Part shown: positions 74 to 52,834 of the stretch, in pieces | How positions within the stretch are numbered: position 1 is the stretch's first letter | Layout: each line of letters opens with the position of its first letter | Assembly (NCBI GenBank): GCA_963921825.1 | Contig: OY997589.1 | Coordinates: forward strand, 22,651,482 to 22,715,481 | Reading direction: 5' to 3' | Length of the DNA: 64,000 bases | Source of the DNA: Erodium maritimum | Taxonomy: Eukaryota; Streptophyta; Magnoliopsida; Geraniales; Geraniaceae | Notes under the pieces: model-generated | Database searches by the model: none | The model's input: only the letters and a program-made list of their open reading frames with translations | What the model was told of the DNA's origin: nothing | Position numbers and translations under genes: made by a program

Positions 74-475
74 TCCCTATGACATATGATCCTTTGGAGA
101 CGTTTCCGAGAATCCCGAAGATATGCGTCCTCCTAGGGACGTTTCTGGCATTCTCGACGTTACACGTCTTTGCAACGTTATGCGTCTCCTCTGGACCGAG
201 GGAAAATCCGATATGACACAGAGAGTGTTGTGAATCGGATGGTGGCGACTACATGTCCCACGGCATTATTCTACTTGTCCCGATGACATATGGCCCTTTG
301 GATACGTTTCCGAGAATCCCGATGATATGCGTCCTCCTAGGGATGTTTCCGGCATTCTCGACGTTATACGTCTTTACGACGTTATGCGTCTCCTCTAGAC
401 CGAGGGAAAATCCAATGTGACGCAACGAGTATTGTGGATCGGAGGGTGGCAACTTCATGTCCCACGGCATTACTG
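74..475 (+). repeat. Two tandem copies of a ~204-bp unit inside the LTR relic
   Basis: The block beginning TCCCTATGACATATG at 74 recurs as TCCCGATGACATATG at 278 and continues in parallel (CCGAGAATCCCGA, GCGTCCTCCTAGGGA, ACGTTATGCGTCTCCTCT) to about 475. The array LTRs carry a single equivalent block, so this looks like an internal LTR duplication. Confidence 0.8.
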
Positions 476-685
476 GAACGTTCTATCTTCTATTGAGTAT
501 TTAAGAAATGCATTGATTTCCCTTATTTTCCTACGATCATTATTGACTCTTTGAAATTGTTAAACATTCAGTTGGCCTCCGTATTTCATCATCGGTTTGG
601 TTTCTCGTTTTATTAAGATTTGAATGAACTTGTGAACTCCTGTTTATTAAACTAAAAGGGTGACCTGGTTATGCATTTTCCCTAC

Positions 686-699
686 TGAGCGTAAGCTCA
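686..699 (+). other. LTR hairpin TGAGC-GTAA-GCTCA
   Basis: A perfect 5-bp stem closes a GTAA loop, which is a GNRA-type tetraloop in RNA. The same structure recurs in every other LTR of this superfamily in the window (3243, 13584, 22540, 31432, 40325). It is followed by CCCC and, some 25 bases later, by TTTCAGGTG. Confidence 0.65.
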
Positions 700-964
700 C
701 CCCTCATGTCTTTGTGGTGTTTCAGGTGTTGAGCGGGAGCAGTATTAGCCGGACTCTCGGGGCTTGGGAGCTTGAGGGTTTAGCTAGTTTTAGAGACGTG
801 TACTCTTTTAAGTTGGTTATTGTGTTTTACCGTTGAGCTGTGACTCATTACATTTTGAAGGATTTATATCATTTGAAAACTTTATTTTATGTCATTATTT
901 TTGTTTTACTGTAAATCTTTAGTCACGTCTCGAGTCTGGGCAAAACCGGATTTGGGGCGTGACA

Positions 965-1389
965 TCAATTTTGGGCCATGCACTTGTATCCTATTGTTGG
1001 CCCAGGAAATTGAGCCCAAGCCTTGTCCTTGGCTGTTTTAATACATCAGGAACGGTAGGGTTTTGAAAAATCAAAAAAAAAGAAAAAAAACACTCCTCTT
1101 CTCATGCGTCTCCTCTCTACTGTTGCGAGTCTGCGACTTTCAGACTCCGAGGAGCTAAGAAATGGCGATGGTTTCCTCAAACTTACCTGCTTTTCAAAAG
1201 GCTCAGGGACTGCGAGTTTTCTGCAGAAAGAAGGATCGGGAGAGACCCAATAACTACCCCTAAAGTCGTCGAAATTACGCCTCCGCCCAAGAGCCTCGGC
1301 GTCCGCTGCTTCGCCTCCGCCTTTACCCCGAGCACGGAGAAGACCGGAGGTAGGCCCGGATGTCAGCAGCTAGGAGACGCAGCTGTGGT
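965..1389 (+). other. Unassigned stretch with a possible broken gene start
   Basis: After an A-rich tract there is a pyrimidine-rich stretch and an ATG at 1162 followed by a short frame (MAMVSSNLPAFQ...) that stops at about 1263. A second frame from about 1242 reads TPKVVEITPPPKSLGV and runs to about 1434. A one-base shift near 1240-1250 would join the two. The composition resembles a plastid-targeted protein start cut off by the LTR relic that follows, but I cannot name it and it could be part of that relic. Confidence 0.25.
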
Positions 1390-2198
1390 TCTTCAAGAGG
1401 TAGGGAAAGTAGCGAATACCGCTTTAATTACGGAAAGTTACTAGCGTGCATGATTAGGGTTTAATAATAAAACCGGAAAGATCATAGTTTGGCATGTAGG
1501 ATACGAACAACTAGCGTAGACGTATGAACTGTGAACATTTACGTTTTCTGTCTTGGTAATTGTCGTGCTGGTAGATTCGGGCCATGTCGTGCCCATAGGG
1601 TTGTTTGTTGTGTGTATCTGTTTGATGCTATGTGGTTTTTGAACGGATAATAAACGATGAACATGAAAAAGAGTAAAATTGAACTAGTGATGCGTGTTAA
1701 TGACCTGTGCGGTTATTGCCTGTTTATTCGATATGTTGAACTGTGGGATGGTTGGGGATTTGATATCAGTTAAGCCGGTGGGGTTACCACGTTGAGCGTG
1801 GTATCGGTAAGTGTTGGTAAGTACGTGACGGTTTGAGTGTGCTTAATGGTTTAATAAGATTATTGCTCGGTGTTGCATGATTGTGGTGACTGTATGTGGG
1901 CAAGTGTGCCATGTTTGATGATGTGAATATTTGGTTGTGATATGACCGTGTGAGTGATAGACCGGCTGTGTGCTATGTTAAGATGGTCCGGTGGGTATAT
2001 TGAGACCATCAGTGATTTGTGTTGTGTGTTAAACCCTGATTGTGTGTTCAAAGAGACGGCGTAGCCGGAGTAGTACCTACACCGAGGGATAGTTCCAATG
2101 TAGGGTACCGAGGCCAAGGATGGCGTGATCACTACCCCGATGACTTGTAGTCGGGTACGGTGTTGACCGAAGTGTGTCCCGGTCCTGTACGTGTTGTG

Positions 2199-2632
2199 AG
2201 TAGTGCCCTTCGTCTGTGTGAAGGAGGAAGACATCGGACTGAGTGATTTCCGGTCGAGGATGTTACCCTTCGTCTGTGTGAGGAGGAAGATATCGGGACT
2301 GATGCTGTGTGTTCCAGTACGATATAAGTGGATGTGTGCATCCGGTGGTGTGGGCTTATGCCGTTTTATGCTATCTGTGTGTGTCTTGTTGTGTGTCGGT
2401 TCGGTACGTATGTTGAGTAGTGCCCTTCGTCTGTGTGAGGAGGAAGACATCGGACTGAGGGATTTCCGGTGGAGAATGTTACCCTTCGTCTGTGTGAGGA
2501 GGAAGATATCGGGACTGATGTTGTGTGTTCCAGTACGATATAAGTGGCTGTGTGCATCCGGTGGTGTTGGTTTATGCCGTTTTACGATATCTGTGTGTAT
2601 CACGTTGTGTGCCCTTTCCTATCTGTGTGTAA
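2199..2632 (+). repeat. Two tandem copies of a 217-bp unit, each with an internal duplication
   Basis: AGTAGTGCCCTTCGTCTG starts at 2199 and again at 2416. Within each unit the block CCCTTCGTCTGTGTGAGG occurs twice, giving four related blocks. The open frames over this region come from the repeat and are not genes. Confidence 0.85.
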
Positions 2633-3242
2633 TTCGATGTGTGCCTTTTCTTGCTGTTTAGCTTTGTGCAATTCTTTTATGTACGATTTGACTTGTGAAA
2701 GTGATCGGTAACCGGGTGTCGGACCGATGCTTTGTGTACCGGTGCGAAATAAGTGGACGGGTTGTGATGGTCGAAAACGTTGGAAATGGTTAAACTATGT
2801 GTTAGGGTGGATCTGCTGTGTGCGATGTGCGTGTTGTTGGTCTTTATGCGTTGTTCTATGTGTGTGTCGTGCGGGTGGTATAGCTTTGCGCCTTGGTTTA
2901 AGTGTGACCTTGGGCTCGTGAGAGTGTTTGGTGACTCGAGATGGTTGTACTTAATTTCTGTGTTGCAGTGCGAGTTCGCACGTGTGGTCGGTTGTGAGAT
3001 AACCGTAGGCGTTGTTCTTTGAGAATTGTAGATGTTGGGTGTCAAGAGCTCTTGTGTTGGAAAGGGGTATGAGTCGGCTCGCTGTGAGCTTGTGTTACGG
3101 GTTGTGCCTGATGGAAGGTTAAGTGTTGTCTTGGAGTATTTGGTTAAATTAACTGTTAATAGTGGTGTTTACTGGTTTGCCATAATTGGACGGCTACCCG
3201 TGTTGTTGAACTGTGGTTCAGATCTTTAACTACTTTTCCTAC

Positions 3243-3256
3243 TGAGCGTAAGCTCA
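3243..3256 (+). other. LTR hairpin TGAGC-GTAA-GCTCA
   Basis: Identical stem and GNRA-type loop to the one at 686, at the equivalent place in the second LTR relic. Confidence 0.65.
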
Positions 3257-3530
3257 CCCCCTGCTTTGTTGTGTTTCAGGTGTTGAGCGGGATCCGTACT
3301 AGCAGGACTCTCGGAGCTTGGGAGCTAGCGAGGGTTTAGCTAGTGTCTAGCGACGTACCTTTTTCTACTGATTTATTTTTTTACCGATGTTTTATCGAGC
3401 TGCGACTCGCGGTATTGTTTAAAGTTTTAAAAATTATGAATTGAGGCTTGTTGGTTTTATTTTTGACGAAAATCCTTATTGTTTTTGCTCACGTCTCGAA
3501 TTCGGTCAAAACCGGATTTGGGGCGTGAAA

Positions 3531-3983
3531 ATTGGCTCGAACAACGACATCAACGTCCTTAACAACATCCACTTATTCCAAGACGCTTACTACGGCCGTG
3601 ATCTGGGAGTGGAGTACTGTATCAACGGGCATATGTACGAACGACCTTATTACTTGGTGGACGACATTTACCCAACATGGGCACGGTTCGTGAAGACTAT
3701 TCGACATCCCTACTCGTCCAAAGAGAAGTTGTTTGCTAAATGCCAAGAAGGTGCTCGGAAAGATATTGAAAGGTCTTTTGGAGTAATTCAAGCAAGGTGG
3801 CACATCATTTCTCGTCCCGCTCGTACTTGGAGCCAACACACTTTGGCTGATATCATGCACACTTGCATCATTCTACACAACATTATTCTAGAGGATGAGC
3901 GCGACCGTTACAAGTATGAAGATGACGAGTTGTTTTACGAGCATCCTCCAGAAATGCCGAATTGGACACCACCGGAACGATGA
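3531..3983 (+). pseudogene. Harbinger-type transposase, C-terminal fragment
   Basis: The frame gives about 150 residues: SNNDINVLNNIHLF, then INGHMYERPYYLVDDIYPTW, KDIERSFGVIQARW and HTCIILHNIILEDERD. These are the characteristic blocks of the plant PF04827-like (DDE, Harbinger) transposase, including the aspartate of YYLVDDIYP and the acidic ILHNIILEDE end. The family normally exceeds 350 residues, so the N-terminal helix-turn-helix and first catalytic aspartate are absent. In life it would cut and reinsert the transposon DNA; here it is dead. The frame upstream of 3531 is LTR sequence read through by chance. Confidence 0.85.
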
Positions 3984-4468
3984 CACTAAGGAGGGCCATT
4001 GGAATATCAGCAACGAGTGGGTGCTCAACATAGTATCACAAGTCATCAGACCCACATGCAACTACAGAATGATCTTGTGAAGCACTTATGGGGTCTATAT
4101 GGAGTTGGTTTCCATGACGACGAGTAGTCTTTTGTACTCTTGGAGTTGGTTTTTGGGTTGTATTAAAAAGGGATGAATAAAAGTTCACGTTCACTTTTAT
4201 TCGTGTTAAATCTATTTCTTATTTTTTTATTGTCATTAATTATTTTTTTCACATTTTTTATATTTTATATAATTTAAACGGTTTCTAATAAAGAATTAAA
4301 TAAAACAGTAAAATGTCAATTAATTAACAACTCAACATCCACTAAAACAGTGAGCCTCTCATTGCAAAACACCCACTATTCTGAGTCACAGGTCCCACTA
4401 TTTTGTTCAATCAACATACGGGACTCAAGACTTAGGATTCATTAAGGGCTTTTCCATTGTACATGCTC
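3531..4468 (+). mobile_element. PIF/Harbinger DNA transposon, 3' part
   Basis: Transposase coding sequence (3531-3983) is followed by about 480 bp of AT-rich tail ending in TTTTCCATTGTACATGCTC, then TAA. A terminal repeat of that kind with a TAA target duplication is typical of PIF/Harbinger and Tourist elements. The 5' part, including the other terminal repeat, is missing because the LTR relic lies against the coding sequence. Confidence 0.6.
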
Positions 4469-4471
4469 TAA

Positions 4472-5411
4472 TCGGACGGGTGAGTCGGATGTCCGCCTTG
4501 GAACCTAAAAATCGGATGGATCGGCACCTAGGCGGCCGGGTCGGAGCTAGTCAGCCGGTCAAAAATTACAGATCTGAACAAATATGATCCCATGCAGACA
4601 TGGACGAACATCACCCTTCAGATGACAGAGAGGAATAGAGATTTAGATCCGATATTTACTTTTCTTCGTGAGGAAAGATGGGAAAGTTATCTGACTGGCG
4701 AGAGATTGACAACGCAAGAGAAAAATAGAGGTCGAGAAAAGAAACAAAATAGACTGAGAAAGGATTCTGATTTCAAGGCTGAAGAGAGAGAAGTATTCCT
4801 GGGAAAGAGAGAGAATTTAAAAATTAATACCGGTTACTTTTTTTGATTAAATATACACGGTTTCTATTTTTCTATACACAAATGATATTAAAATAGATTA
4901 TAATTTATCACTGGTTTTAATATTCAAGATGGTTTTAGCACACAGTTTTAATTTTTGTTTATTGTAGTTATATTGGCAGCTTGTTGGAAATTGTTAGGCA
5001 TTTAAGATGATTAGTTCAAAAGTGTGAGGCATTTAAGATGTTTAGTTCAAAAGTGAAATTGGTTGCTGGTAAATTATAAACGTTAATTGTTTTTAATCTT
5101 ACACAATAATTTTTTATTATATATCTAATATATATTGATAAATAATAGTAAAAAATAATAAAAAAACCGACTAGTCCCCGCCTCACGCTTGGAGACCCTC
5201 ACCGTTCGACTAGCGCATTTTACAATCTTGACCCCAATTAGTCGCAAGAAAAGGGGGCTTGGCAACAAACATATATAGACCGTTCCAATCAAAATGACAC
5301 CAGCAATAATGACTTGTTTACCATATAATAAAGTAGTAAGACTTTAAAGACTAAACTTGTATAAATGGAGGACCAAGATTGAGGTATTGAATTGTCAAGA
5401 AAGAGAAGAAG
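4472..5411. other. AT-rich intergenic region upstream of the P450
   Basis: I see no convincing gene here. An 84-codon open frame at 4592-4846 has no recognisable features and is rich in charged residues. Two TTTAGTTCAAAAGTG copies near 5000-5060 form a short direct repeat. Confidence 0.5.
5272..5366 (+). promoter_or_regulatory. Candidate TATA boxes of the P450 gene
   Basis: TATATAG at 5272 lies 140 bp before the ATG and TATAAAT at 5360 lies 52 bp before it. The first leaves a more usual plant 5' leader. This rests on motif and position only. Confidence 0.35.
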
Positions 5412-14814: not shown

Positions 14815-14945
14815 CCACGGACCTGGTCACGGATCCATGAGGCTAACCATCACGGTTACCATCACGGAGCCGTGACGAGTGTCGTCACGGACTCCCTCAC
14901 GGAGCCGTGACGTCGCCCGTCACGGGATCCGTCACGGATCCGTGG
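14815..14945. repeat. Cluster of CACGG/CCGTG inverted repeats in the LTR
   Basis: About ten copies of CACGG or CCGTG in both orientations lie within 130 bp, including GCCGTGACG and TCACGGATCCGTGG, with a TGACGTC bZIP-type core. Equivalent clusters are at 23771, 32663 and 41556. It could be an enhancer with repeated factor sites or a strong RNA structure in the transcript. Confidence 0.7.
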
Positions 14946-15866: not shown

Positions 15867-18800
15867 TTAAAAGCAAGGTACCTCAATGTCGAACAGGTGG
15901 GGATACTTCACGCGGATCTCATCCTCGCGCTCCCAAGTGGATCCTGCTCCCTGATGTCCCCACTGTACTAGTACCAACGGAATCGTCTTGTTCCGCAGGA
16001 TCTTCTCCTTCGTACCCAAAATCTCAACGGGCTGCTCCTCATAGGTGACATCATCTGCTACCTCGATGTCTGACCACTCAATGATGTGCGAAGGGTCTGC
16101 TATGTACTTCCGCAGTTGGGACACATGGAAAACGTTATGCACGTTCCCAAGCTACGGTGGCAAGGCCAAACGATAGGCTACAGTTCCAATCTTCTCTAAC
16201 ACCTCAAATGGTCCAACAAAACGTGGTGCTAGCTTGCCTCCACTGCGTCTAAACCGCACTAGACCCTTCTTTGGGCTCACCTTCAGAAACACATGCTCTC
16301 CGACAGTGAACTCAAGTGGTCTGCGACGCCTGTCTGCGTAGCTCTTCTGCCGAATCTGTGCGGTCTTCAGCCGCTCTCTAATCAAAGTGACCTTCTCGGT
16401 CGTCTCCCTGATCATGTCTGGCCCAAGTAAGCTCCTGTCCCCAACCTCAGCCCAACATACCGGCGATCTACAGGGTCTGCCATACAAGGCCTCAAATGGT
16501 GCCATACTAATGCTGGACTGGTAACTGTTGTTGTAGGCAAACTCTGCCAAAGGCAAATGATCCTCCCATGATCCCTGAAAGTCAAGCACACAAGCCCGAA
16601 GCATGTCCTCAAGAATCTGAATGGTGCGCTCTGACTGTCCATCTGTCTCAGGATGGTAAGCTGTACTCAACAAGACCTCAGTGCCCAAAGCCTTCTGTAG
16701 ACTCTTCCAGAACCTGGATGTGAAACGAGGGTCTCTATCCGATACCACTGACACTGGTACACCGTGCAGACGAACAATCTCCCTGACGTACAAACGACCC
16801 AACATGTCCACCGAATCAGTCATCCTCATACCCAGAAAGTGGGCCGACTTGGTCAGTCGATCAACCACCACCCAAACAGCGTCATGCCCCTTCGACGATC
16901 TGGGCAACCCACACACAAAATCCATAGTCACATGCTCCCACTTCCACTCGGAGATCGGAAAAGGTTGTAGCAATCCTGCGGGACGCATGTGCTCGGCCTT
17001 CACCTGTTGGCAGGTGAGGCATCGAGAAACGAAATCTGCAACTGCCTCACGCATCCCACTCCACCAAAACTGTCGTCGCATGTCTCTATACATCTTGTTG
17101 CCACCGGGGTGCACAACCAGACGGGAGTGGTGGCACTCACGCAATACAGTGTCTCTGCACTCACTGGGTACAAACAGTCGTCCTCTAAAGCGGATTCCCT
17201 GATCGGTGCCCATCTCCCAACCCTCGAGCTCGGCACCCTCCATCAATCTCTCACGTAGCCCTGCTGTCTCGGCGTCCTCGGTCTGTGCCTCTAACACTCG
17301 AGCAAAAAGTGTGGGCTGAGCCACTAAGGCACACAAGGCCATACTCTCTGTGACCTCCTCCAACTCCAGTCTGAATAAGCTCAACTGCTCCAGCATGTCC
17401 CACTCTCGGACTGCAATGCTGGCAACGCAGTGACTCGACTTCCTGCTCAAAGCATCGGCGACCACGTTCGCCTTGCCCGGATGATAGAGCAACTCGAAGT
17501 CGTACTCCTCAAGTAGCTCCATCCATCGCCTTTGGCGCATGTTCAGATCACGCTGCGAGAAGATATACTTGAGGCTCTTGTGGTCTGAAAACACCCTGAA
17601 CTGCTCACCGTACAGATAATGTCTCCAGCTCTTCAGCACAAATACTACCGCTGCTAGCTCGAGATCATGGGTGGGGTAGTTGCGCTCATGCACCTTCAAC
17701 TGCCTCGAGCCGTAAGCAACCACCTTCCCTCCCTGCATCAGAACATAACCTAGCCCTTCGCCTGAGGCGTCACAATACACGTCATAGCCCACTCCCCGTT
17801 CCGGAACAATCAACACTGGGGCGGTAGTCAACCGAGCCTTTAGCTCGCAAAAAGAACGCTCACACTCATCCGTCCAAATGTACTCCGCTCCCTTGCGGGT
17901 CAAAGCTGTCATAGGTGCTGCAAGGCGGGAGAAATCCTGAACGAAGCGCCGGTAATAGCCTGCCAACCCGAGGAAACTCCGAATCTCAAAAACGTTGCTG
18001 GGTCTCGCCCACTTCGACACTGCCTCAACCTTGGATGGATCGACCAAGATGCCCTCCCGAGATACCACGTGCCCGAGGAACTTCACCTCTGTGAGCCAAA
18101 ATTCGCACTTCTCCATATTGCCGTACAACTGGTGAGTGCGTAAGAGCGCCAAAACGGTCCGCAGATGCTCCGCGTGCGCCTACTCACTGGGCGAGTAGAT
18201 CAAGATGTCATCGACGAAGACTACCACGAACTGGTCTAGATAAGGTCTGAAGATGCCATTCATCAAGTCCATAAAGGCGGCCGGCGCGTTCGTCAAACCG
18301 AACGGCATCACCAAAAACTCGAAGTGTCCATAACGGGTGCGGAACGCTGTCTTCTCTACGTCCTCAGCTCGGACCCTCAGCTGGTAGTACCCCGATCGAA
18401 AATCGATCTTCGAGAAGTACTTTGCTCCCCTCATCTGGTCGAATAAATCATCAATCTTTGGCATCGGGTAGCGGTTCTTCACCGTCGCCCGGTTCAGCTT
18501 CTTGTAATCTATGCACATCCTCAAGGCTCCACCCTTCTTCTTCACGAAAAGGGCGGGCGCTCCCCACGGAGATACGCTCGGGCGGATGAACCCCTTCTGC
18601 TGCAGTTCCTCGAGTTGTCGCTTGAGCTCGACCAACTCAGCTGGTGCAAACCGATACGGCGTCATCGAGATCGGCGTCGTACCCGGGATCAGATCGATCC
18701 TGAACTCCACCTCTCGCGCTGGTGGCAAGCCTGATAGTTCCTCCGGGAAGACCTTCGGGAACTCCCGCACTACCCTCGGTAGCTTACCGCTACTCCGTAC

Positions 18801-20732
18801 GACCTCTGCCTCAGACCCCGAAGTCAAAGCGGATAAGAGGACTCCGCTCTTGCTACTCAAGACACACGTGATCACCCTATCACCTGACCTCACTGTCACC
18901 TGACGTCTGTAGCAGTCGATCGTCGCTCGGTACCTCGCGAGCCAGTCCATACCAAGAATCACGTCAAAGGCGTTCATGTCAAGAACGAGTAAGTCGCCAA
19001 GAAAAGGGCAATCTGTCACCCTAATCGCACAGTCCCTACAAACGGTGCTCAACACCACCGCACCCGTAGCCGGGGTCTCCAAACAAAGGGGTTGACTCAA
19101 AGTCTCCACCCGTAAACCCAAAGAAGAAGCAATAGACGAAGATATGAACGAATGGGAAGCTCCCGTATCAAACAAAAATGAAGTCCACGCATTATAAAGT
19201 AAACACGTACCCTGAGTGGCCTCATGGCCGGCGTACGGCCTCTCAATCCTGGAACCGGTAACTGCAAAGACTCGGCCTTGCCGTGTCGGCGGTCCTCCTC
19301 TAGGTGGTGGGGGAAGTGCCACCTGCTGCTCAGCTCTCGGCTGGTGTCTCTGACCTGCTGCTCCCGCCGCCTGACGCGGAGCTCTCTGCTGCGGTGCCTG
19401 ACGTGGTCTGCCAGGTGGTGATGGGCGAGTCTGAGCCTGCTGGGGCCTCGGTGCAGGCGCTCTGCCAGCTATCTCAGGGCACGCCCGGATGAAATGATCA
19501 GAACGACCACACTGGTAGCATCCTCTCTGTCCTCCCTGCTGTGCTATCTCAGGACACACACGCATGAAGTGGTCGGCGCTGCCGCACTAGTAACATCCCA
19601 TCGGCTCGCTAGGCTGTCTAACACTGGTCCCCTGGGGACGCCCATCATGACGCTCTACAGGTCCATTGCCCCTCAGGCAGTCTCGTGCCAGGTGACCCTG
19701 CTGTCCACACCGAGGACACAGCTGTGCCACCGGAGCGGGTCCAACTGACGCGACGGCCCCTGCTCGGCGTATGCCATCCTGCTGAAACTGAGGCTGAAAG
19801 TGTCCTGCAACTCTCTGTCTGCGTCGGTCTCGATGGTCAGACGGCTGCAAAAAGCCACTCGGTCTAGGCCTGGTCTCTCGCACCCTGACAGTATCTCTGA
19901 AGTGTCTCTCCATGGCTAAAGCCTGATCCAAGAGTGTGGAGTAATTTGTGGTCCTAAAAGCGATAGCCCTGTCGGCTATCGACGGGATGAGCCCGTTCTC
20001 AAACCTCCTGCAACGGTCATCCGCAGTCTGCACCAACTCCGGCGCGAAGCGGGCCAAAGAAGTGAACCTCACTGCATACTCAGAAACACTCAAACCCCTC
20101 TGACGTAAGTCTAGAAACTGCTGACGCCGGTCATCCCGAATGGAGCGAGGGAAGTACTGCTCCAAGAACAGCCTGCTGAACAACTGAAAATCACTGCCAA
20201 CCCTCTCCTGCACTGACTGCCACCAGTAGTAGGCCTCTCCCTCAAGCTGAAAAGTAGCGAACGAAACCCTCAAGCGCCCCTCCGATACTCCAGAGGTATC
20301 GAGGTTGCGGGTGACCCGCTCCAACCAGCCCGAAGCTGCCTCGGGGTCCGCTCCCCCGGAGTAGGTCGGCGTGCCAAGTCTACGGAACTCTCTGAGTGAC
20401 TGGGCCGTGAGGCTATCAAACTGTCCTGGCCTCTCCCCAAAATCTACTGAAGCAACAGGCACGGGCTCTGGTGCCGGTGTTGTAGTCCCCTGCTGCGCAC
20501 TCAAGGCTGCTAGCACAGCACGAACCACCTCCTCGAGAGGGGTTGCCTGAGTCGGCTCTACGACTGGAGATGTCTTGGGTGGCGACCCTGTTGGTCCCCC
20601 CTCAGAGTGCTGATGCTCTGTAGAAACAGCATCCTGGGCATCAGCTGCCCCCTCCTGCTCAGCTGCAGGTGTCTGCCTCGGACCCCCAGCTGGGCGGCTC
20701 CGGGTACCTCTAGGAACATACGTACGAGCCAT
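15867..20732 (-). pseudogene. Ty3 gag-pol, unit 1
   Basis: A single 1622-codon frame starts at MARTYVPRG (20732). Gag covers the first ~380 codons and ends in CCHC knuckles (CPRCGQQGHLARDC). Then come the protease ([11 protein letters not shown]), RT with FVDDILIY, RNase H ([11 protein letters not shown]), an HHCC zinc site and DDE integrase ([25 protein letters not shown]), and a chromodomain-like tail. The frame is broken by UAG at 19587 (inside a second knuckle, after CY), by UAG at 18180 (ten residues after FVDD) and, only in this unit, by UAG at 16152 near the integrase end. Gag would form the particle and pol would copy and insert the element. This copy cannot make pol without reading through three stops. 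Confidence 0.9.
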
Positions 20733-20833
20733 GTCGCCTATCCGCCTGCACGGATAACGCACATGTTCAGTACTCAGTTCAACACCGGTTCTCACACGCC
20801 ACAAGGCCGAACACACACGAGCTTACAAGTCAC

Positions 20834-20834
<1 letters not shown>

Positions 20835-20886
<52 letters not shown>

Positions 20887-20887
20887 C

Positions 20888-20934
<47 letters not shown>
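20835..20934. repeat. TA/TACA microsatellite, unit 1 only
   Basis: About 100 bp of (TA)n with TACATA interruptions lies between gag and the leader. Units 2 and 3 have only GATATATATATAC at this site (29815, 38708), which explains why unit 1 is about 64 bp longer. Confidence 0.95.
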
Positions 20935-21460
20935 CTCATATAATATAGCACACAAGTTCGCATCTCTATGCGTCACACAGCAACAACCAGCGATTTAGCA
21001 ATCAACCACCAACTCCCACAGGAGGGTTCAACCAAGTCAAAGAAATCCACTCCCACAGGAGGATTCAAACTCAAGCACAACACACAAGGCACAACGCAAC
21101 AGGCACACCCCTTGCTCGGGTATCCTTCCACAAAGATGGGTTTAGTACTTAACACAATTCAATTCAATAATCACCCTTAACCTTTCCTTCCCTTCCATGA
21201 ATTCCCATTTCTTAACTTTTACTCAAACCTTTTCATGTCGATCTCATGTTGTTACAACCTGATTCAGGCGTCCCCGAACCTCATTGTAACAACTGGACAT
21301 CGAACCATCATGCTCAACTACAGTGACGCCCCTGAGTCAACCAGTGATGGTGTAAACATTTTAGTTCTACTGAAAATTCGGCATGACCCCTTCGTATTTC
21401 CCTTAACCCTCCGTTTAAACGGGACAACCATCAATGCCAATTCAAAAGGTAAAAGTACAC

Positions 21461-21880
21461 AGAGTTCTCATGCTCTTCCAAAGACATCACACAGTCAAAA
21501 AGGGAGTTCTCATGCTCCTAAAGTACACAACGAAAACAATAAACGGAGTTCTCGTGCTCCCAAAATATTACGGGGTACTCGTGCCCCAAACTCGCCACCT
21601 CCACGGGCTTACGGGATTCTCGTGTCCCAAATTCGCCACCTCCACGGGCATAGGGGATACTCGTGTCCCAATTTCGCCACCTCAGCGGGCATAGGGGATA
21701 CTCGTGTCCCAAATTCGCCACCTCAGCGGGCATAGGGGATACTCGTGTCCCAAAATCGCCACCTCAGCGGGCATACGGGATACTCGTGTCCCAAAACAAA
21801 GTTCTCACACAACGAAATACGGGGTCCTCGCGCCCCAACCAAAACACTCAATAACAGCATACATGGAGTACTCATGCTCC
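21461..21880 (-). repeat. Leader hairpin array, Ty3 unit 1
   Basis: Eleven 16-nt inverted repeats have a 4-bp stem and an 8-nt loop, at 21461, 21503, 21545, 21572, 21613, 21654, 21695, 21736, 21777, 21821 and 21865. Plus-strand stems are AGAG/CTCT, GGAG/CTCC, GGGG/CCCC or GGGA/TCCC, and the loop is close to TWCTCRTG. Six are spaced exactly 41 bp apart inside a minisatellite with the constant spacer TCGCCACCTC. The array lies in the ~1.5-kb leader between primer-binding site and gag. All four stem pairs are kept in every copy listed; a degenerate one near 21801 is not counted. Confidence 0.8.
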
Positions 21881-22229
21881 AGACCAACAGTCAATCACCA
21901 GTCAAAACTTGAACAGGACCAAACTACAACTTGAAAATTTTCGAAGTAATACGCCAAAGGGCAGCACCACCAACTGTTGGCTCACCCTACCATGTATGCA
22001 TATCGGGTCGGTCATTGACCATTAATCCAATTCCGATCTCAACCATTCGGCTTCACCGATCATTAGGGAGAGGATACCAATCGAGTAATGCAAACATTGT
22101 AGTGTAAGGTTTCATTTAGGACAACTCTTAAAGCACTTAAGACTCAGACTTCCTAACTCTACCCACCTAATTGACTTCGGTCCGAGGTTTGAAAATCAGT
22201 TCATAAGACACCTGTTTCAAATGAAACCA

Positions 22230-22242
22230 GGCTCTGATACCA
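22230..22242 (-). other. Primer-binding site, Ty3 unit 1
   Basis: In sense TGGTATCAGAGCC begins three bases after the LTR end. It is complementary to the 3' end of plant initiator tRNA-Met, the minus-strand DNA primer. Confidence 0.9.
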
Positions 22243-22245
22243 AAT

Positions 22246-24789
22246 TGTCACGCCCCAAATCCGGTTATCGCCTGGACTCGAGGCATGACGAGTAATAGAA
22301 GACAATAAAATAATAGAACAACATTTAAATCCTGAAAACCTCCAATAGAAAAGCTCCAATCCACATGATCTAGTTTAAAACAAGAATAACCCTCAAGGGG
22401 TGTAATAATATATCTCCACAAAATCTGGTTCAACAGAAATAAAGATAAAAACGAAGTCTCTAAGGACACCCACACCGAGAAGCTCCCGAGCCTCTACTCC
22501 TCTATCAAGCCTGTAAACACAACAATAAACTCGCAGGGGTGAGCTTGCGCTCAGTAGGGAAAACACATAACAAGATGGACCTTCAACTCAATAAGATCAA
22601 CAATAAAGTCAACCAAAAACATCTTAACAAACACAGGTAATAGATAAATCAACCAATGACGTGGCACATGAAGTCTCCACCCTCCGATCCACATAATGTG
22701 TCCTCTCGGATTTTCCCTCAAATCCAGAGGAGACGCATAACATTGAGGCGACCGGAAACAACCCTTCGGGGCGCTTATCATCGGGATTCTCATAAACGTC
22801 TCCAAGGGATTTTATGTCCTCGGGAACCAAGGTATTACTCCCATAGGGAGCATACACTTGGACAATTTAATAATAAGCAGTTAATAATTGAATACGCACT
22901 CAACCGAACATGAAATAATACAAGCTCAACAACCATCAATTCAATTCCACACATGGCTCACACATCACCAATTCACCACAACAAGCAATACATGTATCAC
23001 GCAAACATAGCACACCAATCACACAATCCCAACTTACCGTTCACTTACCAGTTTCGAACCACCGGGGCATCGATCACCTGATTGTACCGCTCGGTACAAC
23101 CAGTCATAATCGATGCTCCAAACAACCCTTCAAGTAAATCAAGCAATCATTCGAATGCAATCAACGAGCAAGTACGAGTATAATCAACTAAACATAAAAA
23201 CCTTCAAAAGAGCATTTACACATGCAAATCCACTAGTTTCATTAGACTCTTTAGCCTATCCACTAAGCAATCAACAACCAAGCATGTGATCCTAACACGC
23301 AACTAATCCGAGGGCTTTGCCAAGGCTCCTCTACCAGACAATCAAATCCCAAGTATTGAAAGCGAATTACACTAGTGCATGGCATCCTAATCGGTCACCA
23401 CTAGACACTTCCGGTTATTAGAAATTGAAAGACGATTATGCTAGTTATTCGCATCCTATAGGCATTTCTAGGACCTTTTCCAATTTTATTAACCTAACAT
23501 GCATACTAAGCATCATAAACGAGAGGTTAAGGCTTTCCCTACCTCAAGGTCCTCCTCTTCAACACTTTGATGAAGCCCGGTGATCACCACTTCGCTCTTC
23601 ACTCGGGTCCCGGCGTGATCCTTGCTCCTCTAGCTCGATCCCCAAAGTCTTGGACACAAAGAAACGATAATTAGACTCCACTTAAACAGCAAGAAAGTCT
23701 CCCAAAACCCTTCCAAAGTTCAGCTCAAAACCAAGATGCAAAACCCTCAAGAAACCCTCACCCTGGTCTGCCACGGACCTGGTCACGGATCCATGAGGCT
23801 AACCATCACGGTTACCATCACGGAGCCGTGACGAGTGTCGTCACGGACTCCCTCACGGAGCCGTGACGTCGCCCGTCACGGGATCCGTCACGGATCCGTG
23901 GCGCACCAGAGCAGTTTCGCCCTTCTTCAACCTCCAGCTCCAAATCTCCGAAAAACCACCTTCAAACCCAGAATTTTACCCCTTCCAACTCCCAAAACAG
24001 TCCAAATCCTTCAATACTCCTCTACCCATGGTAGGAATCAACACACAAACAAGTTTCCAATGATTCATCAAATCAAACCCAACTCAAAAGCTCCAACAAA
24101 CCAATGATTTCTCAACACAAATCCAACAAAGCTTCTCATCAACAATATCTCCCACCATTTCTACTCAAACCCAACAACATCTAGCAATTTTCACCCAAAA
24201 CCCATGAAAATAGATGAAGAGAAATGAGGATTAGAGAGTTCCATTACCTCTAGAATGTTGAGATGAAGAAGATGGTGGAGGTCTTGAGGAGGGATGGCTA
24301 GAGGAAGACTTCAAGTGGCCTCTTCTTCCTTGATTCTCCTTCAAAGCTCCATGGGAGCTCTTCTCCCTTGCTCCTCCTCTAAATTTCGGCTACACCAATG
24401 TAAAAAATGAATTGATTTTGCTTCTCCAATCCCATATAATACCTAGATGTAGCAAAGACCTAAAAGCCCTTGAGCTAGATTCCCTTGTAGTAGCTTTTGG
24501 GAGGGTAAAAGGGACTACGACTATCCCTTTTTCTCTCTTTCAACCAAAAAAAGACAAGTGTCCACCTAGGTCATTTAATTTTCCAAAATAATTTCCAGCA
24601 ATTTAAAAATAATGATTTTAGTCGATAAAAAGTCTCGTTTTGACCAAAATTGACTTTATCCAATATTATACTCAAACGAAAGGGATTTCTCCCCTGAAGC
24701 CAACCGTGATAATGGCTAATTAGTTTGGGTTTCGGAAAAGTCCCGAGTGACTTCTTGAGTCATCGGTTCGACCGGAAGCGGGTCTTACA
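22246..24789 (-). repeat. Ty3 LTR 2 (shared by units 1 and 2)
   Basis: It serves as 5' LTR of unit 1 and 3' LTR of unit 2, with identical termini to LTR 1. It is followed on the left by a PBS and on the right by a polypurine tract. Confidence 0.95.
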
Positions 24790-30352: not shown

Positions 30353-30772
30353 AGAGTTCTCATGCTCTTCCAAAGACATCACACAGTCAAAAAGGGAGTT
30401 CTCATGCTCCTAAAGTACACAACGAAAACAATAAACGGAGTTCTCGTGCTCCCAAAATATAACGGGGTACTCGTGCCCCAAACTCGCCACCTCCACGGGC
30501 TTACGGGATTCTCGTGTCCCAAATTCGCCACCTCCACGGGCATAGGGGATACTCGTGTCCCAATTTCGCCACCTCAGCGGGCATAGGGGATACTCGTGTC
30601 CCAAATTCGCCACCTCAGCGGGCATAGGGGATACTCGTGTCCCAAAATCGCCACCTCAGCGGGCATACGGGATACTCGTGTCCCAAAACAAAGTTCTCAC
30701 ACAACGAAATACGGGGTCCTCGCGCCCCAACCAAAACACTCAATAACAGCATACATGGAGTACTCATGCTCC
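30353..30772 (-). repeat. Leader hairpin array, Ty3 unit 2
   Basis: Same eleven hairpins as unit 1, shifted by 8892 bp. Confidence 0.8.
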
Positions 30773-31137: not shown

Positions 31138-33681
31138 TGTCACGCCCCAAATCCGGTTATCGCCTGGACTCGAGGCATGACGAGTAATAGAAGACAATAA
31201 AATAATAGAACAACATTTAAATCCTGAAAACCTCCAATAGAAAAGCTCCAATCCACATGATCTAGTTTAAAACAAGAATAACCCTCAAGGGGTGTAATAA
31301 TATATCTCCACAAAATCTGGTTCAACAGAAATAAAGATAAAAACGAAGTCTCTAAGGACACCCACACCGAGAAGCTCCCGAGCCTCTACTCCTCTATCAA
31401 GCCTGTAAACACAACAATAAACTCGCAGGGGTGAGCTTGCGCTCAGTAGGGAAAACACATAACAAGATGGACCTTCAACTCAATAAGATCAACAATAAAG
31501 TCAACCAAAAACATCTTAACAAACACAGGTAATAGATAAATCAACCAATGACGTGGCACATGAAGTCTCCACCCTCCGATCCACATAATGTGTCCTCTCG
31601 GATTTTCCCTCAAATCCAGAGGAGACGCATAACATTGAGGCGACCGGAAACAACCCTTCGGGGCGCTTATCATCGGGATTCTCATAAACGTCTCCAAGGG
31701 ATTTTATGTCCTCGGGAACCAAGGTATTACTCCCATAGGGAGCATACACTTGGACAATTTAATAATAAGCAGTTAATAATTGAATACGCACTCAACCGAA
31801 CATGAAATAATACAAGCTCAACAACCATCAATTCAATTCCACACATGGCTCACACATCACCAATTCACCACAACAAGCAATACATGTATCACGCAAACAT
31901 AGCACACCAATCACACAATCCCAACTTACCGTTCACTTACCAGTTTCGAACCACCGGGGCATCGATCACCTGATTGTACCGCTCGGTACAACCAGTCATA
32001 ATCGATGCTCCAAACAACCCTTCAAGTAAATCAAGCAATCATTCGAATGCAATCAACGAGCAAGTACGAGTATAATCAACTAAACATAAAAACCTTCAAA
32101 AGAGCATTTACACATGCAAATCCACTAGTTTCATTAGACTCTTTAGCCTATCCACTAAGCAATCAACAACCAAGCATGTGATCCTAACACGCAACTAATC
32201 CGAGGGCTTTGCCAAGGCTCCTCTACCAGACAATCAAATCCCAAGTATTGAAAGCGAATTACACTAGTGCATGGCATCCTAATCGGTCACCACTAGACAC
32301 TTCCGGTTATTAGAAATTGAAAGACGATTATGCTAGTTATTCGCATCCTATAGGCATTTCTAGGACCTTTTCCAATTTTATTAACCTAACATGCATACTA
32401 AGCATCATAAACGAGAGGTTAAGGCTTTCCCTACCTCAAGGTCCTCCTCTTCAACACTTTGATGAAGCCCGGTGATCACCACTTCGCTCTTCACTCGGGT
32501 CCCGGCGTGATCCTTGCTCCTCTAGCTCGATCCCCAAAGTCTTGGACACAAAGAAACGATAATTAGACTCCACTTAAACAGCAAGAAAGTCTCCCAAAAC
32601 CCTTCCAAAGTTCAGCTCAAAACCAAGATGCAAAACCCTCAAGAAACCCTCACCCTGGTCTGCCACGGACCTGGTCACGGATCCATGAGGCTAACCATCA
32701 CGGTTACCATCACGGAGCCGTGACGAGTGTCGTCACGGACTCCCTCACGGAGCCGTGACGTCGCCCGTCACGGGATCCGTCACGGATCCGTGGCGCACCA
32801 GAGCAGTTTCGCCCTTCTTCAACCTCCAGCTCCAAATCTCCGAAAAACCACCTTCAAACCCAGAATTTTACCCCTTCCAACTCCCAAAACAGTCCAAATC
32901 CTTCAATACTCCTCTACCCATGGTAGGAATCAACACACAAACAAGTTTCCAATGATTCATCAAATCAAACCCAACTCAAAAGCTCCAACAAACCAATGAT
33001 TTCTCAACACAAATCCAACAAAGCTTCTCATCAACAATATCTCCCACCATTTCTACTCAAACCCAACAACATCTAGCAATTTTCACCCAAAACCCATGAA
33101 AATAGATGAAGAGAAATGAGGATTAGAGAGTTCCATTACCTCTAGAATGTTGAGATGAAGAAGATGGTGGAGGTCTTGAGGAGGGATGGCTAGAGGAAGA
33201 CTTCAAGTGGCCTCTTCTTCCTTGATTCTCCTTCAAAGCTCCATGGGAGCTCTTCTCCCTTGCTCCTCCTCTAAATTTCGGCTACACCAATGTAAAAAAT
33301 GAATTGATTTTGCTTCTCCAATCCCATATAATACCTAGATGTAGCAAAGACCTAAAAGCCCTTGAGCTAGATTCCCTTGTAGTAGCTTTTGGGAGGGTAA
33401 AAGGGACTACGACTATCCCTTTTTCTCTCTTTCAACCAAAAAAAGACAAGTGTCCACCTAGGTCATTTAATTTTCCAAAATAATTTCCAGCAATTTAAAA
33501 ATAATGATTTTAGTCGATAAAAAGTCTCGTTTTGACCAAAATTGACTTTATCCAATATTATACTCAAACGAAAGGGATTTCTCCCCTGAAGCCAACCGTG
33601 ATAATGGCTAATTAGTTTGGGTTTCGGAAAAGTCCCGAGTGACTTCTTGAGTCATCGGTTCGACCGGAAGCGGGTCTTACA
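31138..33681 (-). repeat. Ty3 LTR 3 (shared by units 2 and 3)
   Basis: 2544 bp with the same termini, almost identical to LTR 2 and LTR 4 on reading. Confidence 0.95.
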
Positions 33682-39245: not shown

Positions 39246-39665
39246 AGAGTTCTCATGCTCTTCCAAAGACATCACACAGTCAAAAAGGGAGTTCTCATGC
39301 TCCTAAAGTACACAACGAAAACAATAAACGGAGTTCTCGTGCTCCCAAAATATAACGGGGTACTCGTGCCCCAAACTCGCCACCTCCACGGGCTTACGGG
39401 ATTCTCGTGTCCCAAATTCGCCACCTCCACGGGCATAGGGGATACTCGTGTCCCAATTTCGCCACCTCAGCGGGCATAGGGGATACTCGTGTCCCAAATT
39501 CGCCACCTCAGCGGGCATAGGGGATACTCGTGTCCCAAAATCGCCACCTCAGCGGGCATACGGGATACTCGTGTCCCAAAACAAAGTTCTCACACAACGA
39601 AATACGGGGTCCTCGCGCCCCAACCAAAACACTCAATAACAGCATACATGGAGTACTCATGCTCC
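39246..39665 (-). repeat. Leader hairpin array, Ty3 unit 3
   Basis: Same eleven hairpins, shifted by 17785 bp from unit 1. Confidence 0.8.
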
Positions 39666-40030: not shown

Positions 40031-42574
40031 TGTCACGCCCCAAATCCGGTTATCGCCTGGACTCGAGGCATGACGAGTAATAGAAGACAATAAAATAATA
40101 GAACAACATTTAAATCCTGAAAACCTCCAATAGAAAAGCTCCAATCCACATGATCTAGTTTAAAACAAGAATAACCCTCAAGGGGTGTAATAATATATCT
40201 CCACAAAATCTGGTTCAACAGAAATAAAGATAAAAACGAAGTCTCTAAGGACACCCACACCGAGAAGCTCCCGAGCCTCTACTCCTCTATCAAGCCTGTA
40301 AACACAACAATAAACTCGCAGGGGTGAGCTTGCGCTCAGTAGGGAAAACACATAACAAGATGGACCTTCAACTCAATAAGATCAACAATAAAGTCAACCA
40401 AAAACATCTTAACAAACACAGGTAATAGATAAATCAACCAATGACGTGGCACATGAAGTCTCCACCCTCCGATCCACATAATGTGTCCTCTCGGATTTTC
40501 CCTCAAATCCAGAGGAGACGCATAACATTGAGGCGACCGGAAACAACCCTTCGGGGCGCTTATCATCGGGATTCTCATAAACGTCTCCAAGGGATTTTAT
40601 GTCCTCGGGAACCAAGGTATTACTCCCATAGGGAGCATACACTTGGACAATTTAATAATAAGCAGTTAATAATTGAATACGCACTCAACCGAACATGAAA
40701 TAATACAAGCTCAACAACCATCAATTCAATTCCACACATGGCTCACACATCACCAATTCACCACAACAAGCAATACATGTATCACGCAAACATAGCACAC
40801 CAATCACACAATCCCAACTTACCGTTCACTTACCAGTTTCGAACCACCGGGGCATCGATCACCTGATTGTACCGCTCGGTACAACCAGTCATAATCGATG
40901 CTCCAAACAACCCTTCAAGTAAATCAAGCAATCATTCGAATGCAATCAACGAGCAAGTACGAGTATAATCAACTAAACATAAAAACCTTCAAAAGAGCAT
41001 TTACACATGCAAATCCACTAGTTTCATTAGACTCTTTAGCCTATCCACTAAGCAATCAACAACCAAGCATGTGATCCTAACACGCAACTAATCCGAGGGC
41101 TTTGCCAAGGCTCCTCTACCAGACAATCAAATCCCAAGTATTGAAAGCGAATTACACTAGTGCATGGCATCCTAATCGGTCACCACTAGACACTTCCGGT
41201 TATTAGAAATTGAAAGACGATTATGCTAGTTATTCGCATCCTATAGGCATTTCTAGGACCTTTTCCAATTTTATTAACCTAACATGCATACTAAGCATCA
41301 TAAACGAGAGGTTAAGGCTTTCCCTACCTCAAGGTCCTCCTCTTCAACACTTTGATGAAGCCCGGTGATCACCACTTCGCTCTTCACTCGGGTCCCGGCG
41401 TGATCCTTGCTCCTCTAGCTCGATCCCCAAAGTCTTGGACACAAAGAAACGATAATTAGACTCCACTTAAACAGCAAGAAAGTCTCCCAAAACCCTTCCA
41501 AAGTTCAGCTCAAAACCAAGATGCAAAACCCTCAAGAAACCCTCACCCTGGTCTGCCACGGACCTGGTCACGGATCCATGAGGCTAACCATCACGGTTAC
41601 CATCACGGAGCCGTGACGAGTGTCGTCACGGACTCCCTCACGGAGCCGTGACGTCGCCCGTCACGGGATCCGTCACGGATCCGTGGCGCACCAGAGCAGT
41701 TTCGCCCTTCTTCAACCTCCAGCTCCAAATCTCCGAAAAACCACCTTCAAACCCAGAATTTTACCCCTTCCAACTCCCAAAACAGTCCAAATCCTTCAAT
41801 ACTCCTCTACCCATGGTAGGAATCAACACACAAACAAGTTTCCAATGATTCATCAAATCAAACCCAACTCAAAAGCTCCAACAAACCAATGATTTCTCAA
41901 CACAAATCCAACAAAGCTTCTCATCAACAATATCTCCCACCATTTCTACTCAAACCCAACAACATCTAGCAATTTTCACCCAAAACCCATGAAAATAGAT
42001 GAAGAGAAATGAGGATTAGAGAGTTCCATTACCTCTAGAATGTTGAGATGAAGAAGATGGTGGAGGTCTTGAGGAGGGATGGCTAGAGGAAGACTTCAAG
42101 TGGCCTCTTCTTCCTTGATTCTCCTTCAAAGCTCCATGGGAGCTCTTCTCCCTTGCTCCTCCTCTAAATTTCGGCTACACCAATGTAAAAAATGAATTGA
42201 TTTTGCTTCTCCAATCCCATATAATACCTAGATGTAGCAAAGACCTAAAAGCCCTTGAGCTAGATTCCCTTGTAGTAGCTTTTGGGAGGGTAAAAGGGAC
42301 TACGACTATCCCTTTTTCTCTCTTTCAACCAAAAAAAGACAAGTGTCCACCTAGGTCATTTAATTTTCCAAAATAATTTCCAGCAATTTAAAAATAATGA
42401 TTTTAGTCGATAAAAAGTCTCGTTTTGACCAAAATTGACTTTATCCAATATTATACTCAAACGAAAGGGATTTCTCCCCTGAAGCCAACCGTGATAATGG
42501 CTAATTAGTTTGGGTTTCGGAAAAGTCCCGAGTGACTTCTTGAGTCATCGGTTCGACCGGAAGCGGGTCTTACA
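40031..42574 (-). repeat. Ty3 LTR 4 (shared by units 3 and 4)
   Basis: 2544 bp with the same termini. It is the last LTR of the array; the 5' LTR of unit 4 is missing. Confidence 0.95.
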
Positions 42575-45600: not shown

Positions 45601-46061
45601 AGACACACGTGATCACCCTATCACCTGACCTCACTGTCACCTGACGTCTGTAGCAGTCGATCATCGCTCGGTACCTCGCGAGCCAGTCCATACCAAGAAT
45701 CACGTCAAAGGCGTTCATGTCAAGAACGAGTAAGTCGCCAAGAAAAGGGCAATCTGTCACCCTAATCGCACAGTCCCTACAAACGGTGCTCAACACCACC
45801 GCACCCGTAGCCGGGGTCTCCAAACAAAGGGGTTGACTCAAAGTCTCCACCCGTAAACCCAAAGAAGAAGCAATAGACGAAGATATGAACGAATGGGAAG
45901 CTCCCGTATCAAACAAAAATGAAGTCCACGCATTATAAAGTAAACACGTACCCTGAGTGGCCTCATGGCCGGCGTACGGCCTCTCAATCCTGGAACCGGT
46001 AACTGCAAAGACTCGGCCTTGCCGTGTCGGCGGTCCTCCTCTAGGTGGTGGGGGAAGTGCC
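42608..46061 (-). pseudogene. Ty3 pol, unit 4, cut by the copia insertion
   Basis: The frame from 44893 to 42608 (RT end, RNase H, integrase, tail; 761 codons) is open, the longest uninterrupted stretch of any unit. The shared UAG in RT is present at 44921. The protease and RT part (up to 46061) is intact until it runs into the copia LTR at 46062, where GGGGGAAGTGCC meets TGTTGGG. The frame continues by chance into the LTR. Gag resumes only as the fragment at 58317-58716. Confidence 0.9.
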
Positions 46062-47749
46062 TGTTGGGTCTCGAGGTAGGGTTGGAGATGAACCAACTCG
46101 CAGCGGAAAATCAATGAAAACCAAGAGACAATTAAAACCATGAAACAACTAACAAAGAATGGATTAACAAGAGAAAAATTCAGCACTAGTTCTTACCAAA
46201 ACAAGAACACCGGTTAACGAATGATTGGCTTGAGTCTCCAAGACGCCTACGTATCCACATGGGAATCAAAGCCACGTAGTTCTTCTCTTTGAGGACTCAA
46301 GAACACAAACATGGAGGTGGAAACTAGCCAAACCCGAAATGGCCATGGAAGAGGGAGAGAAAATGTGTTTCCTATTCTTGTCTTGTCTTTGTTATGTTGA
46401 AAAAAGATGACTTAAACATAACAAAACCCATACTTGTCCAACTAAAGGCATGGGACAAGTATGGTGTCAAGTAAGGTGTAAATAGGACAAAGTATGGCAA
46501 GACAAGATTGGGTTAGGTGGTGAATCACCAACACCTTAATCCTTGTCTTGCTTACTTAGTACTAATTAATCAAGACTTGATTAATTAGTTCCATGGGCCT
46601 TGGTTGCATGGGCCTTTCATGGGCCTCTTGGAACATGGCCCGTGGCCATTTCCAACGAGGTCCCGTGATTCGCTCATCGCCTCCAAGCCTTCCATACCGG
46701 AAATGTCCAACATTATCCGACGCGATCAATCCCAAGACTCCAAGCCTTGTCTCGATCCGTAAAGTCCTATTCACTTACGGGCACATGACCCAAAACCCAG
46801 TTTTGGTCATGTCCCGAGACAACTCCCTTTTGGCCATTCTCCATAAATGTGTCAATGAGTTTCATCCTCCGGTGTGACCCTTAGGTTTATGCATGTCAAT
46901 AGATCAACGTAAAATCCCATTTTACTTGATCCTATTTAAGTGGCAACTAACGAGACTTTAGTATTGCCTGACACTGCATAACGAATCGACCCTGTCGATT
47001 CTAACCTTTCCGTCATCCCTGTCATTATCCTTTTATCTCCGATATCCTGATTGAGATAAGGCATAGAGCCGTCATCCTTATTATTCTCAATCACCGTTCC
47101 TTGATATGTGAGATGACTGAAGATATGATACCCAGTATCATGTGCATGGCCATGCTATTCTTCCAGTCACTCTCGATCAAGCGGCCGAGAACCGATATCT
47201 TTCCCATACCTTAGTATGAGGGATAAATCCCTTAGCCGTCTTTCGTGTCACTCATGTAGCCCGTCCCCAAGCCAATCCTGGCCGTTATGGAAGCCCTGTT
47301 ACGGACAACGTTAGGCTCAGGTCAAACTCAGTTGTTGACTACATAGCGATCACAAAGACTCCTTGGTCTAAGGATACATGACAAGCTACAACACTGAATA
47401 TGTTCATGACTTAATCTATGGCACATATTCAGTGCGGGTCGTCCAATATCATGTCCCACATGATATCTATGATCAGACTCCGGAATCCCATTCCAATGAC
47501 TAACAGAACGTAAGCCATAAAGAGCCATCTTTCATACTAGTCGCTTCTAGTGAAGCTTTGTTGACTAGGGACCCATCGAGTGTGATCTATCTCGATCTAT
47601 GGTTCTATTCGCATGGTGGGCATAGATCAGAGCACACATCGATATATTACTCCAACACATAAGTAATATAAAGCCGCTTTAATTTTATTGCTAACGATGA
47701 TATATACATTTGGACATTTAGGATTGAACTACGGGCACTAAGACTAACA
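46062..47749 (-). repeat. Copia LTR 1 (3' LTR)
   Basis: The plus strand begins TGTTGGGTCTCG and ends AGACTAACA. I found one difference from LTR 2 near the left end (CCAAGAG for CCACGAG). Confidence 0.93.
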
Positions 47750-52833: not shown

Positions 52834-52834
52834 C

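Follow-up and report, generated by a model that had tools for sequence, protein, structure and literature searches.

The window, the whole stretch of 64,000 nucleotides of Erodium maritimum DNA analysed here, contains three tandem LTR retrotransposon units on the minus strand, each about 8.89 kb long and 99.7-99.9% alike in aligned blocks. They have the features of Ty3/gypsy elements: LTRs (as direct repeats), a tRNA primer-binding site (PBS), and gag followed by protease, reverse transcriptase, RNase H and integrase in that order (Pfam domains). In the first unit the PBS, TGGTATCAGAGC, was located by exact motif search at 22231-22242 (minus), and we take it to be of the tRNA-iMet type. The motif has four exact matches in the window, against a mean of 0.00 in shuffles. 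A hairpin seen by eye, CCTGGTTTCATTTGAAACAGG, lies immediately 3' of the PBS (22211-22231, minus) and is also present in locus L083. A leader of about 1.5 kb (20733-22230, minus) then extends to gag, which was identified from its ORF and Pfam domains (Retrotrans_gag and zf-CCHC; 19587-20732, minus, ATG at 20732). Three CCHC zinc-knuckle motifs start at 19718, 19595 and 19520 (19479-19718, minus), and in the window copy the stop of the gag ORF falls inside the middle knuckle. Loci L064 and L066 also have three such motifs, and L083 has two. The pol region (16152-19565, minus; ORFs 18180-19565 and 16152-18152) encodes RVP_2, RVT_1, RNase H, integrase and SH3_Tf2-1 domains, as identified with Pfam. 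A chromovirus (Tekay/Del-like) would carry a chromodomain at the integrase C-terminus. The 94-aa tail resembles one by eye and gave no Pfam chromodomain match at E<=0.1. Also present are TCACGG/CCGTGA-rich tandem repeats of 35, 23 and 12 nt, one block per unit (14862-14944, 23818-23900, 32710-32792 and 41603-41685).

A hairpin array at 21461-21880 on the minus strand lies between the PBS (22231-22242) and the gag ATG (20732). It comprises eleven hairpins of 16 nt, in which a 4-bp stem closes an 8-nt loop (sense CRYGAGDA). The same eleven hairpins occur in unit 2 (30353-30772, minus) and unit 3 (39246-39665, minus). Because these are tandem copies about 99.9% identical to the first, they are not independent evidence. 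Loops start at 21465, 21507, 21549, 21576, 21617, 21658, 21699, 21740, 21781, 21825 and 21869, giving start-to-start spacings of 42, 42, 27, five times 41, 44 and 44 nt. Read along the window strand, the stems are AGAG, GGAG, GGAG, GGGG, five times GGGA, GGGG and GGAG, and all four pairs are Watson-Crick in 11/11. The sense (minus-strand) loops are CATGAGAA, CACGAGAA, CACGAGTA, CGCGAGGA and CATGAGTA, with YGAG at loop positions 3-6 in every one of the eleven. An earlier note on this DNA had described eleven such hairpins with four stem types and all pairs kept, placed between PBS and gag in each Ty3 unit. Its coordinates proved exact, and the observation is confirmed. The near-constant loop that it proposed, CAYGAGWA, fits ten loops but not CGCGAGGA (21825).

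No further perfect 4-bp/8-nt hairpin was found in the 451 nt from 21450 to 21900. The motif YGAG occurs 17 times in the array, against 7.1 in shuffles, with eleven of these supplied by the loops themselves. Hairpins 4-9 lie within a 41-nt tandem repeat of 5.5 copies (21569-21795, minus); hairpins 5-9 share one stem within this repeat and are thus probably copies of one unit. Rfam gave no match to the array above gathering score, and five sub-threshold miRNA/RUF21 matches near a TA repeat (20831-20950). At 46061-57352 the window carries a second LTR element, which has repeated blocks and a PBS of its own (52822) and in which no array-type loop with a 4/4 stem was found. Other features of the leader were seen by eye. 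A second hairpin class, CTCC-TGTG-GGAG, is present in two copies (21013-21024 and 21050-21061; minus). In the form CTCC-TGYG-GGAG it occurs in 2-3 copies in the window (21013-21061), L084 and L090, and family B has something similar. A perfect 10-nt inverted repeat, GTTGTTACAA/TTGTAACAAC, lies at 21248-21293.

We scanned one genome of 763 Mb for the array. Triple loops with short gaps gave 2,878 matches (1,494 + 1,384; overlapping triples counted), against 5 (2 + 3) in a reversed-letter control, which shows that the array is not due to chance. A set of 47 loci was assembled from 30 array-similarity matches and 20 loop-pattern loci, minus three redundant ones; it omits L005/L006 (tandem copies) and L031 (the L064 locus) and retains the neighbour pairs L016/L017 and L021/L022. 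Hairpin number differs between loci. An exact PBS was identified in 33/47 loci, upstream of the array in 33/33, and because loci were oriented by loop count, the sense orientation rests on these 33 sites. Of the 455 clustered loops in the 47 loci, 402 sit on stems with 4/4 pairs. The Watson-Crick share at pairs 1-4 is 98.5, 98.2, 97.1 and 94.1%, and at a fifth pair it is 12%, so the stem consists of four pairs. Loop position 3 is C in 326/455 loops (mostly CACGAGWA) and T in 129/455. The search pattern fixed loop positions 1, 4, 5, 6 and 8 in this set and in both tree sets described below, so their invariance there is no finding; YGAG at positions 3-6 in 455/455 loops was likewise imposed by the pattern. 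Across 64 distinct hairpins, 81% of the pairs are formed, compared with a mean of 59% and a maximum of 66% in 1,000 column shuffles, and sliding by one drops pairing to 45-46%. Related hairpins are not independent, so the shuffle test proves little alone; the tree test is meant for that.

In viral contigs, a triple-loop control with the pattern CACGAGWA only gave 41 stretches (58 overlapping matches) and 4/4 stems in 0/187 loop readings. A 17-mer from the array matched three viral contigs, with one unrelated-looking match in each, and a protease/RT query gave no match in them. Arrays with a Y-R inner pair (two loops, each then followed by R) showed no excess, with 90 matches against 106 in the control. 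Among these chance-level matches, repeats resembling CATGAGTAAT and separated by CG-rich spacers form a short cluster (G000:C3:2844481-2844610).

The earlier note had proposed that stem substitutions be counted against those in loops and spacers. We did this in alignments without search-pattern bias inside the array. Among 23 copies of the window subfamily (omitting L005/L006, L017, L020, L022, L025 and L033), shared substitutions occur at 1/88 stem, 2/88 loop, 54/244 spacer and 43/150 flank sites, and singletons number 14, 9, 60 and 40, respectively. Shared changes are strongly depleted in hairpins relative to spacers (p=6e-11). Hairpins also have fewer singletons (23/176 vs 60/244, p=0.004), so part of the contrast may reflect mutation or alignment rather than selection in active elements. 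Even so, hairpin and spacer differ in the ratio of shared to single changes (p=0.0007). A set of 16 copies with type-1 gag further omits L007, L009, L014, L016, L029, L030 and L032, which have no usable type-1 gag start or are rearranged. In this set, inherited changes fall at 0/88 stem, 1/88 loop and 73/394 spacer and flank sites, and at 19/230, 17/230 and 54/230 sites of gag codon positions 1, 2 and 3. Hairpins (1/176) are more conserved than second codon positions of gag (p=0.0005). Thus, we conclude that most of the conservation arose while the elements were active.

Changes in the stems were placed by parsimony on a tree that was built from loop and flanks without the stems and that comprised 336 distinct units (484 instances in 57 loci). 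Inherited changes (those on internal branches) number two at pair 1 and four at pair 2, and 6/6 are matched doubles, against 7/69 at flank positions paired alike (p=9e-6). Pair 3 has no inherited change. Pair 4 has seven: one matched double, one other double and five one-sided changes. This looseness is mostly in the gag-proximal hairpin, which in many copies lacks its outer pair (CGAG/CTCT, or U-G in TGAG/CTCG). In total, seven matched double changes lie on internal branches. An earlier tree of a smaller set, without family B, gave four, as 4/4 matched doubles at pairs 1-2, with two one-sided changes and one other double at pair 4. All 31 one-sided changes at pairs 1-3 are on terminal branches, as expected of decay after insertion. 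Because each unit is only 48 nt long and units may undergo gene conversion with one another, the event numbers are approximate.

Other stems were also identified. AGGG/CCCT is present in 4/10 family-B loci, and four others have TGGG/CCCT at the same place, with the outer pair broken. The stem GACG/CGTC has 640 exact copies in the genome, against 1 in the control. Listed on C1 below 104.19 Mb are 57 GACG hairpins, and for 16 of them an exact GGGG/CCCC hairpin lies on the same strand, 794-1007 nt upstream; the upstream regions read for this comparison were those of these 16. None of the 57 listed has a GGGG/CCCC hairpin downstream, and one has such a hairpin nearby on the opposite strand.

These results bear on whether the array is an ordinary minisatellite, in which units copied by slippage would pair because the ancestral unit was palindromic. 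Hairpins 4-9 do lie within a tandem repeat, and hairpin number does vary among loci, as such an origin would predict. Inherited changes, however, spare the hairpins and not the spacers and flanks, pairs 1 and 2 change on internal branches as matched doubles only, and other copies carry the same loop on another stem some 800-1000 nt beyond. We therefore consider the minisatellite reading largely refuted and very improbable. The earlier note had named two findings that would count against selection on structure. One, stem arms that change independently, does not describe pairs 1-2 (none of six inherited changes is one-sided) or pair 3 (no inherited change), but does describe pair 4 in part (5/7 inherited changes one-sided). 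The other was slippage from one or two units with no extra compensation; hairpins 5-9 look copied in this way, yet there are seven internal matched doubles and further stems elsewhere. Its claim of selection on structure rather than plain minisatellite drift is thus supported by the matched doubles and by hairpin conservation, and the array is very probably a selected, base-paired cis element.

Which strand forms the pairs is less clear. Folded in full, the array is no more stable than its shuffles (z +1.48; 94/100 shuffles at least as stable), and those hairpins that were folded have predicted energies of -2.0 to -6.2 kcal/mol. Modelled mean pair probabilities of the sense hairpins range over 0.00-0.68 without restriction and 0.01-0.99 at a 30-nt pair limit. 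The antisense hairpins are mostly predicted to be more stable (0.00-0.99 and 0.25-1.00, respectively); on that strand, loop positions C1 and A8 read as a U-G closing pair. The hairpin might work on the other strand, as antisense RNA or minus-strand cDNA, or the dyad might be a DNA site. The stem intermediates speak in part for the sense strand. In the GGGR/YCCC class genome-wide (1,329 GGGG/CCCC), 21 intermediates at pair 1 are sense G-U, against 9 sense A-C (p=0.043), although at pair 2 there are 11 sense-wobble intermediates against 12, so these counts do not discriminate between the strands. For a DNA-binding dimer, one would expect conserved half-sites rather than a conserved centre, and here the half-sites vary. 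On balance, action on the other strand or as a DNA site appears unlikely. A structured element between PBS and gag, as expected of a packaging signal, is indicated by position and by conserved pairing. The weakness of that reading is physical, as the sense hairpins are predicted to be formed for part of the time only.

The same leader is found in a second family in which gag is defective (L016, L029, L030, L067, L074, L075, plus L017, which is tandem to L016). Window-like leaders were identified in 6/6 copies tested, with 83-95% nucleotide identity in aligned blocks. The gag-like DNA is only 53-65% identical, with differences across all codon positions, and has 3-9 stops per copy. One stop, at residue 127, is shared by 6/6 copies, and stops at residues 199 and 223 by 5/6. 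These common stops suggest that the source copy was probably already defective. Type-1 copies also carry some stops (two in L064, three in L066, none in L083). No CCHC motif was found in the part covered of the non-autonomous gag-like loci examined. Three probes of the pol region (L094, L096 and L097, from two elements) showed no similarity to pieces of the window pol (tblastn, E<=1), and the probed sites may hold a nested insertion. The 3' segment of this family has 2,318 candidate places in the genome, of which 40 were scored. The family looks like an abundant non-autonomous one whose leader module was exchanged near a TA-rich stretch. In its six copies, which align poorly over the array, the frequency of shared changes in hairpins does not differ significantly from that in the dead gag (9/192 vs 40/684, p=0.6), and no selection on the hairpins after the loss of gag was detected.

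The array is thus retained in 6/6 copies with stop-bearing gag-like DNA. Because it is carried by elements without an intact Gag from that gene, a cis role is favoured and control of gag translation is disfavoured. The array does lie in the leader upstream of gag, where it might recruit ribosomes, cause shunting or repress translation. The family that keeps it, however, has a stop at the same residue of its gag-like DNA in 6/6 copies, and an AUG is possible in the minority of loops with T at position 3 (129/455) only. We consider translation control improbable.

The role that we put forward, by analogy and with somewhat less than even confidence, is that of a multi-site Gag-recognition (packaging) signal in the genomic RNA. 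The repeated hairpins would present the near-constant, single-stranded loop C-A-Y-G-A-G-W-A on short stems, the sequence of which would matter little provided that pairing holds. Several copies of Gag might bind the exposed GAG-containing loops via their CCHC knuckles, with the repetition of hairpins adding avidity, and such binding could select full-length RNA for particle assembly. Elements without working proteins might then ride along by keeping the array. Packaging would fit the near-constant loop, the exchangeable paired stem, the many copies, the leader position and a Gag with CCHC motifs. Location and analogy are what lead us to prefer it, with due reserve, over nuclear export or a different RNA function.

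A host RNA-binding protein that governs nuclear export or splicing is a rival reading to be taken seriously, although we rate it as rather unlikely. On this explanation, the array would keep the long leader RNA unspliced or export it, and a repeated weak hairpin would suit a host protein. CAG/G was seen by eye just 5' of the gag ATG in the window (20745, minus) and likewise in L083. If used as a 3' splice site, it would make the leader an intron. The evidence obtained does not separate export or splicing from packaging. Dimerisation of the RNA by kissing loops is another role that hairpins in a leader might have, and the 4-nt palindrome CAUG is present in a minority of loops. Most loops, however, are CACGAGWA (position 3 is C in 326/455) and not self-complementary, and no T.CTC[AG][CT]G site is found on the sense strand of the element; kissing dimerisation is accordingly very unlikely. 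Among the roles raised in the earlier note (packaging, translation control, dimerisation and protein binding), packaging is tentatively favoured, kissing dimerisation is unlikely and translation control is weakened.

The packaging region psi of retroviruses (HIV-1, MMTV and others) consists of stem-loops downstream of the PBS, with CCHC domains as the candidate ligand. The array resembles psi in its stem-loops 3' of the PBS and its candidate CCHC ligand, but psi of HIV-1 comprises four distinct stem-loops in the section used here (PMC3902901), whereas the window has eleven units with one loop. Closer in form are the packaging signals of HBV, which are stem-loops with an RGAG loop motif; the signal PS1 has a predicted energy of -3.7 kcal/mol (PMC8677749; see also PMC7612645). 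Shared with HBV are several stem-loops, a common loop motif, differing stems, short stems of similar predicted energy and a reverse-transcribing element. The HBV sites, with their RGAG motif, are scattered across the genome; the present hairpins form a dense leader array in an LTR retrotransposon with a CCHC Gag, and all eleven window hairpins have YGAG, not RGAG, at positions 3-6.

The defective-gag family recalls BARE2 of barley, which cannot make Gag, is parasitic on BARE1, outnumbers it and keeps its dimerisation and packaging signals (PMC3735527, in the part considered). The same logic, a parasite without Gag keeping the signals of its partner, is proposed here. BARE1 and BARE2 differ in belonging to another superfamily (Ty1/copia), in that the part considered describes no hairpin array with a constant loop, and in that packaging was demonstrated there (PMC3735527) and is inferred here. 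The cis-acting sequences of yeast Ty3 map to the ends of its RNA, and nt 429-4979 can be dispensed with if the proteins are supplied in trans (PMC4974528). For yeast Ty1 and Ty3 alike, 5' plus 3' sequences suffice for mobilisation in trans, as may hold here; the portion of that source used describes no hairpin array in them (PMC4974528).

Two kinds of repeat in plant LTR retrotransposons are superficially similar. Sireviruses carry many copies of a dyad motif in non-coding DNA. These repeated palindromes, with hardly any loop or none, are found in the LTRs and upstream of env, and the passages used discuss them as DNA regulatory sites (PMC2829016). Most of them keep their arms (CGG-CCG) and not the centre (PMC2829016), whereas in the leader array the arms vary and the loop is conserved. 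The array is thus not a palindrome with conserved arms in an LTR or linker. The 3'UTR tandem repeats of Tat/Ogre elements, also within plant Ty3/gypsy elements and including elements without pol, are hypervariable and lie downstream of gag-pol, according to the relevant part of PMC7004042. The array lies upstream of gag and its hairpins are conserved, so it does not have these features.

We regard the array as a leader RNA signal of unusual form. No element of this form, and no RNA packaging signal that has been defined in a Ty3 element of plants, was found in the open-access literature (subscription papers fell outside the scope of the search). Packaging signals are mentioned for the Ty1/copia element BARE (PMC3735527, in the part considered), and the phrase "packaging signal" is absent from the portion consulted of a recent plant review (PMC12786077). 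More tentatively than for the packaging role as such, we suggest that this may be an undescribed kind of plant LTR packaging signal. In such a signal, the hairpins would be densely arrayed and interchangeable, many Gag molecules would read their one constant loop, and autonomous elements would exchange the whole module with an abundant non-autonomous family parasitic on them.

In many plants, Ty3 elements account for a large part of the genome. The array, with its conserved loop and exchangeable stems, is a compact, testable candidate for a packaging signal, and it could explain how defective elements stay mobile. It also allows one to ask whether multi-site packaging, as proposed for HBV, works in LTR retrotransposons. 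Some leaders contain further hairpins. GGC-CATGAGA-GCC, with a 7-nt loop, was identified together with repeats in inserted blocks of L071 (1800-1900), L073 (1830-1900) and L079 (1700-1900), and the block in L079 contains repeated CCTCGAGGAGG.
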